In this document: piece by piece, positions 1-649 of the stretch
Layout of the letters: every line of letters starts with the position of its first letter
How positions within the stretch are numbered: the stretch's first letter is position 1
Program-made: the position numbers and the translations under genes
Origin: Chloroflexia bacterium
GTDB taxonomy: Bacteria > Chloroflexota > Chloroflexia > Thermomicrobiales > CFX8
Length of the DNA stretch: 58,522 nucleotides
Direction of reading: 5' to 3'
NCBI GenBank assembly: GCA_030431755.1
Contig: JAUIIK010000013.1
Span: 1 to 58,522 of the forward strand
Notes under the pieces: generated by a model
Database searches by the model: none
Seen by the model: the letters and a program-made list of their open reading frames with translations, nothing else
Told to the model about the DNA's origin: nothing

Positions 1-2
1 TC

Positions 3-533
3 CCGCCCTACGAGGTGCTGACGAACAACGGCCCCGCGCTGAAGGGCTTAACCCAGTTCCAGCAAGCCGTGCGCTTCGGCGACTCCCCGCTCACAAGGCT
101 GCAACGCGAGATGATCGCGACGCTCACCAGCGGCGCGACCGGCTGCGTCTTCTGAACCCTCTCCCACCGCCGGTGGATTCGCCGGCTTGGTCGGGCCCAG
201 GATGAGTACAGCCGCAGCGAGATCGAGCAAATTGCCGACGATCTCTCCCAGGCAATCTGGGATTCACCGCCGCTCAACGCCGCCGACCGCGCCATGCTGC
301 GCTACGTCTACAAGCTGACGAGGCAACCCGGCGACGTGGGCGAGGCCGACATCCAGCCGCTCCGCGACGCCGGCTTCGACGACCAGGCCATCGGCGACAT
401 CGCGACCAACTGCGCGCTCTTCGCCTTCTTCACCCGCATCGTCGACGGTCTCGGCGCAACACTCGAACCGGGCATGGTCGCCGAAGCGGAACGCCTCGGC
501 CTCTCGTCCCACCTGGGCGTAGCAGCGGACTAG
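3..533 (+). CDS. AhpD-like peroxidase (CMD family), probable selenoprotein, 5' partial
   Basis: The first complete codon is at position 3, so the N-terminus lies outside the window. One frame runs to the TAG at 531-533, broken only by a TGA at 153-155. Around it the protein reads ATGCVF-[TGA]-TLSH. AhpD-like/peroxidase-related enzymes carry a C-x-x-C-x-x-x-H redox motif here, so the TGA replaces exactly the second catalytic cysteine (CxxU). Both sides match the family: REMIATL before, and RAMLRYVYKLT, DIQPLRDAGFDD and FFTRIVDGLG after. Known for the family: a thiol or selenol hydroperoxide reductase, alpha-helical. Inferred: TGA is read as selenocysteine. A plain nonsense mutation or sequencing error is the alternative, but substitution at precisely this residue argues against it. 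Annotation without recoding would leave only the fragment 294-533. Confidence 0.85.
153..186 (+). other. TGA (Sec) codon with downstream SECIS-like hairpins
   Basis: The in-frame TGA is at 153-155. Two mutually exclusive hairpins follow. One is CCACC (164-168), loop GCC, GGTGG (172-176). The other is GCCGG (169-173), an 8-nt loop, CCGGC (182-186). Each loop has a G in its first two positions and lies roughly 16-22 nt from the TGA, as is usual for bacterial SECIS elements. Short stems are common in GC-rich DNA, so this supports the recoding call but does not prove it. Confidence 0.5.
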
Positions 534-573
534 ACGCTGATCTCTTCCTGGGCATTGGTCACTCGTCGCGCGT

Positions 574-649
574 CGTAGGGGTGGAGTTCATCTCCACCCG
601 GCTGCGGGATCGAAGACGGTACCGGGTGGAGATGAACTCCACCCCTACG
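574..649. repeat. Nested inverted repeat, GTAGGGG family
   Basis: Two perfect 28-bp arms (574-601 and 622-649) face each other across 20 bp. Each arm is itself a palindrome, GGTGGAG-TTCAT-CTCCACC, flanked outside by GTAGGGG or CCCCTAC. It lies between the convergent ends of the AhpD-like and SRAP genes. The same design with a different palindrome core recurs at 38144-38231, with simpler relatives at 10875 and 47941. Confidence 0.8.

Follow-up and report, generated by a model that had tools for sequence, protein, structure and literature searches.

A divergent AhpD-like gene of a Chloroflexia bacterium with an in-frame UGA predicted to encode selenocysteine at its second redox-cysteine position

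We find that the AhpD-like, peroxidase-related gene at the beginning of the window, i.e., the whole stretch of 58,522 nt of Chloroflexia DNA analysed here, is interrupted by a single UGA that, judged from sequence, most probably encodes selenocysteine (Sec; probability about 0.96). Four lines of evidence lead to this reading, i.e., the unbroken homology across the UGA, the position of the UGA within the active site, the repeated occurrence of UGA at this codon in relatives, and a genome equipped with all components of the Sec machinery. The features referred to in the following are these:

Positions 3-533, + strand: AhpD-like/peroxidase-related selenoprotein gene (open reading frame plus family match), its 5' end lost at the contig end
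Positions 108-110, + strand: codon GAG of Glu36, conserved, 12 residues ahead of Cys48 (invariant column)
Positions 144-146, + strand: codon TGC of Cys48, the presumed resolving Cys of CxxU (sequence, alignment)
Positions 153-155, + strand: in-frame UGA, putative selenocysteine, residue 51 of the visible part (alignment; TGA in 98/112 homologues)
Positions 165-167, + strand: codon CAC of His55, the conserved His of C-x-x-U-x-x-x-H (invariant column)
Positions 169-186, + strand: SECIS-like hairpin with the 7-bp stem GCCGGUG/CGCCGGC and the loop GAUU

The frame 3-533 ends with the TAG at 531-533 and holds no internal stop other than the TGA at 153-155. Reading through this codon, positions 3-530 yield one uninterrupted peroxidase-related protein. 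The GC content at third codon positions is 0.92 upstream and 0.85 downstream of the TGA, such that both flanks look coding. The first ATG downstream of the TGA is found at position 294, which is indeed the start expected for the C-terminal fragment that ordinary gene callers were said to report. Since the window begins at contig base 1 and no contig overlapping its first 120 bases was found among the assembly's other contigs, the start codon and the N-terminus of the gene are missing.

The read-through protein matches the NCBIfam model TIGR01926 (peroxidase-related enzyme) over residues 3-153 with 96.7 bits, which exceeds the curated cut-off of 81.8 bits. The Pfam domain CMD (PF02627) is matched with 36.8 bits over residues 13-68, with the TGA inside the matched span. 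That is, both matches extend across the TGA, in accordance with the original prediction of one continuous CMD/AhpD-like protein on its two sides. The same prediction had placed the TGA at the second Cys of C-x-x-C-x-x-x-H. This holds when the protein is aligned with Cys homologues: in a 17-row alignment, in which it shows 34-47% identity to the other proteins, Sec51 falls into an invariant Cys column, Glu36 and His55 are invariant as well, and Cys48 is nearly so. Within the extended motif E-(11x)-C-x-x-C-x-x-x-H, the TGA thus occupies the second Cys position. The AhpD set Glu/CxxC/His is intact with the right spacing as Glu36, Cys48, Sec51 and His55, positions which we take to be those of the catalytic residues of AhpD.

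Relatives with solved structures (PDB 2pfx, 3c1l, 6k40, 2oyo and 2prr) are homologous over about residues 12-157 and cover the CMD-type domain; their names are 'uncharacterized peroxidase-related' or AhpD-like. They differ from the window protein in carrying CxxC where it has CxxU, i.e., Cys instead of Sec and no UGA.

By all sequence criteria, the genome uses selenocysteine, as had been supposed from the window gene. Family searches in the same genome recovered selA (contig C26, 506 bits vs. a cut-off of 268), selB (C202, 318 vs. 242) and selD (C13, 363 vs. 125). The gene of tRNA-Sec (selC) is located on C206 (78 bits vs. a gathering threshold of 47), and ARAGORN reports it as tRNA-SeC with anticodon tca (UCA). 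Three further selenoprotein genes accompany the window gene. The SelD gene itself (L055, G000:C13:10733-11668) has an in-frame TGA at the family's usual Sec site (...LASTAGUASKLAP...), and so does the gene of a formate dehydrogenase alpha subunit (L153, G000:C193:780-2648; ...DSCNRTUHAPSV...). The third is an AhpD-like paralogue (L010, G000:C176:34534-34941; about 6541-7079 of L059) with C-H-Y-U at the homologous site. A second Sec codon considered for this paralogue was rejected, the second TGA being its ordinary terminal stop. The paralogue lies divergent from a photolyase-like open reading frame (7209-8567 of L059), which was named by eye.

A TGA within a conserved protein might also be explained by a changed genetic code, i.e., by an organism that reads TGA everywhere as a sense codon, e.g., for Trp or Gly. 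We consider this to be next to impossible. TGA terminates 10 of the 33 long open reading frames of the window that were taken as genes; it is thus an ordinary stop here, the code is not reassigned, and the explanation was rejected. Further points against it are the presence of tRNA-Sec, selA and selB and the observation that the in-frame TGAs detected in the genome fall only at known Sec positions.

A broken gene, i.e., a pseudogene or a sequencing error in which a Cys codon TGC or TGT was turned into TGA, is a second alternative; both codons are one base away from TGA, and the gene lies at the end of a contig. To it we assign a very low probability. On either side of the TGA, the frame stays open and looks coding, the genome decodes Sec, and the TGA is found at the same codon in the paralogue as well as in close and distant relatives. 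It is this recurrence, over the paralogue and relatives from many phyla, by which a pseudogene or error was rejected.

The extent of the recurrence was assessed in two sets of homologues. Within the class, 58 of 158 genomes contain a homologue; 32 homologues were fetched, of which 21 show TGA at exactly the codon in question and the other 11 TGC or TGT. The search of named genomes used a 5-row alignment and patterns without the Sec codon. Here, TGA stands at the same codon in 77 of the best 80 relatives, a proportion that is no census since a Sec protein served as the reference for the similarity ranking. The 77 belong to Chloroflexota, Gemmatimonadota, Acidobacteriota, Planctomycetota, KSB1, Zixiibacteriota, Actinomycetota, Alkaliphilus and others. 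When both sets are pooled, 98/112 homologues show TGA at this codon and nearly all others TGC or TGT. The nearest genome of the same family (L019) also has TGA there, within C-V-Y-U. Given its recurrence in these homologues, the same-genome paralogue and L019, the TGA at this codon is not due to chance.

When mapped on a 111-row tree, Sec and Cys require 5 changes of state compared to 12.5 with shuffled labels. The deep forks of this tree are weak, and the placement of the window protein, which is found beside a Gemmatimonadota protein with an SH-aLRT of only 81%, is unsure. A Sec/Cys switch inside one order is seen where L020 (G001) stands beside L038 (G104) and L048 (G102): one of these near relatives has TGC at the codon where the other two have TGA. 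Two AhpD-like homologues from the same order, L041 (G107:C317:2079-2408) and L046 (G106:C119:1791-2159), have the form GxxU (GGAPU...H), i.e., they have TGA at the Sec site but the first Cys replaced by Gly, with a 6-bp hairpin downstream in each. In this form, Sec is retained and the resolving Cys is gone. Taken jointly, these data may mean that AhpD-like selenoproteins are far broader than the Cys-annotated records, that Sec prevails in a branch spanning many phyla, that Sec/Cys switching (including GxxU) is frequent, and that the window gene is one divergent member; we give this joint reading an even chance.

A bacterial SECIS search had been suggested as a check on the Sec reading. A SECIS-like hairpin was found at the expected distance, its loop GAUU opening with G and located 21 nt past the UGA. 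Its signal in the single gene is modest. Of the three predictions that were checked, i.e., Sec machinery, TGA at the redox Cys and SECIS-like hairpin, each was borne out, the hairpin being the weakest. Compared to dinucleotide shuffles the hairpin has a z-score of -1.46, and compared to synonymous recodings a p-value of 0.074; that is, it is unexceptional for such G+C-rich DNA and on its own only suggestive. An Rfam scan of window positions 1-600 gave chance matches only and no match to a SECIS family.

The comparison among homologues is more telling. Hairpins of the TGA group are stronger than those of the Cys group (Mann-Whitney p of 0.001, and 0.007 in a larger set), with p-values that overstate the difference because the rows are related and not independent. 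A hairpin of at least 5 bp whose first or second loop nucleotide is G is present in 85% of the TGA homologues vs. 43% of the others. We observe 62 different hairpins in the homologues in which the pairing is kept while the letters differ, e.g., ACGGAG-CGGGU-CUCCGU, CGGCCG-GUCU-UGGCCG, CUUCCUGC-GGUC-GCAGGGAG and GGCGCCG-AGUUG-CGGCGCC.

AhpD-like selenoproteins with CxxU had been described before, as was correctly stated in the original prediction. The earliest listing of an 'AhpD-like protein' with this motif, comprising 27 sequences, is that of the Sargasso Sea survey (PMC1088965). The GOS survey (PMC2398784) reports 299 sequences as 'AhpD-like 1', and Table 1 of a 2026 review (PMC13188914) gives TIGR01926/CxxU under 'predicted with high confidence'. 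With this known family (TIGR01926, CxxU; COG2128), the window protein shares a family-model score above cut-off and the placement of CxxU; a SECIS-like hairpin likewise follows downstream, though in this gene alone it is only suggestive. It differs in being divergent (34-47% identity to those aligned) and in lacking its 5' end. The alkylhydroperoxidase-related (seleno)protein family NF041238, with CFYUT, has a related domain and the same Sec position, and the window motif C-V-F-U-T is similar; the score of 44.4 bits is far below the cut-off of 175, and the window protein is thus not a member. We regard the window gene as a genuine selenoprotein gene, a divergent addition to a kind known since 2005.

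We infer the actual insertion of Sec, the SECIS function of the hairpin, the substrate and the reductant. In the mechanism we propose, SelB bearing Sec-tRNA(Sec) would recognise the hairpin just downstream of the UGA, whereby the ribosome would insert selenocysteine at 153-155. The redox centre would consist, as in AhpD, of the pair Cys48-x-x-Sec51 together with His55 and Glu36. Sec51 would reduce a hydroperoxide (or a disulfide) and, once oxidised, be resolved by Cys48 in a selenenylsulfide, from which a dithiol partner would reset the pair.

That the physiological activity is that of a peroxidase seems reasonably likely. The main functional rival, which concerns only this functional half of the explanation, is a selenoprotein acting as a thiol/selenol-disulfide oxidoreductase or as another CMD-fold enzyme. 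TIGR01926 is named by similarity, its PDB relatives bear the label 'uncharacterized peroxidase-related', and the family's listing in the 2026 review (PMC13188914) is one of prediction, not of experimental verification. The intact and correctly spaced Glu/Cys/Cys/His set of AhpD speaks against such a role, which we hold to be a tentative alternative.

With regard to the peroxidase-related selenoprotein itself, the gene is a sound but ordinary example that alters no principle. A widespread selenoprotein family, still listed as predicted (PMC13188914), thereby gains a divergent member. The gene also implies that this Chloroflexota lineage employs selenocysteine in four genes or more, including two AhpD-like ones, and that such genes would come out shortened under standard gene calling.

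The neighbouring SRAP and glyoxalase genes, on the opposite strand, show no functional link to the window gene. Just 3' of the gene, at about 576-650 of the window, we noted by eye an inverted repeat (GTAGGGGTGGAGTTCATCTCCACCCGG ... CCGGGTGGAGATGAACTCCACCCCTAC), which may act as a terminator or be an intergenic repeat.
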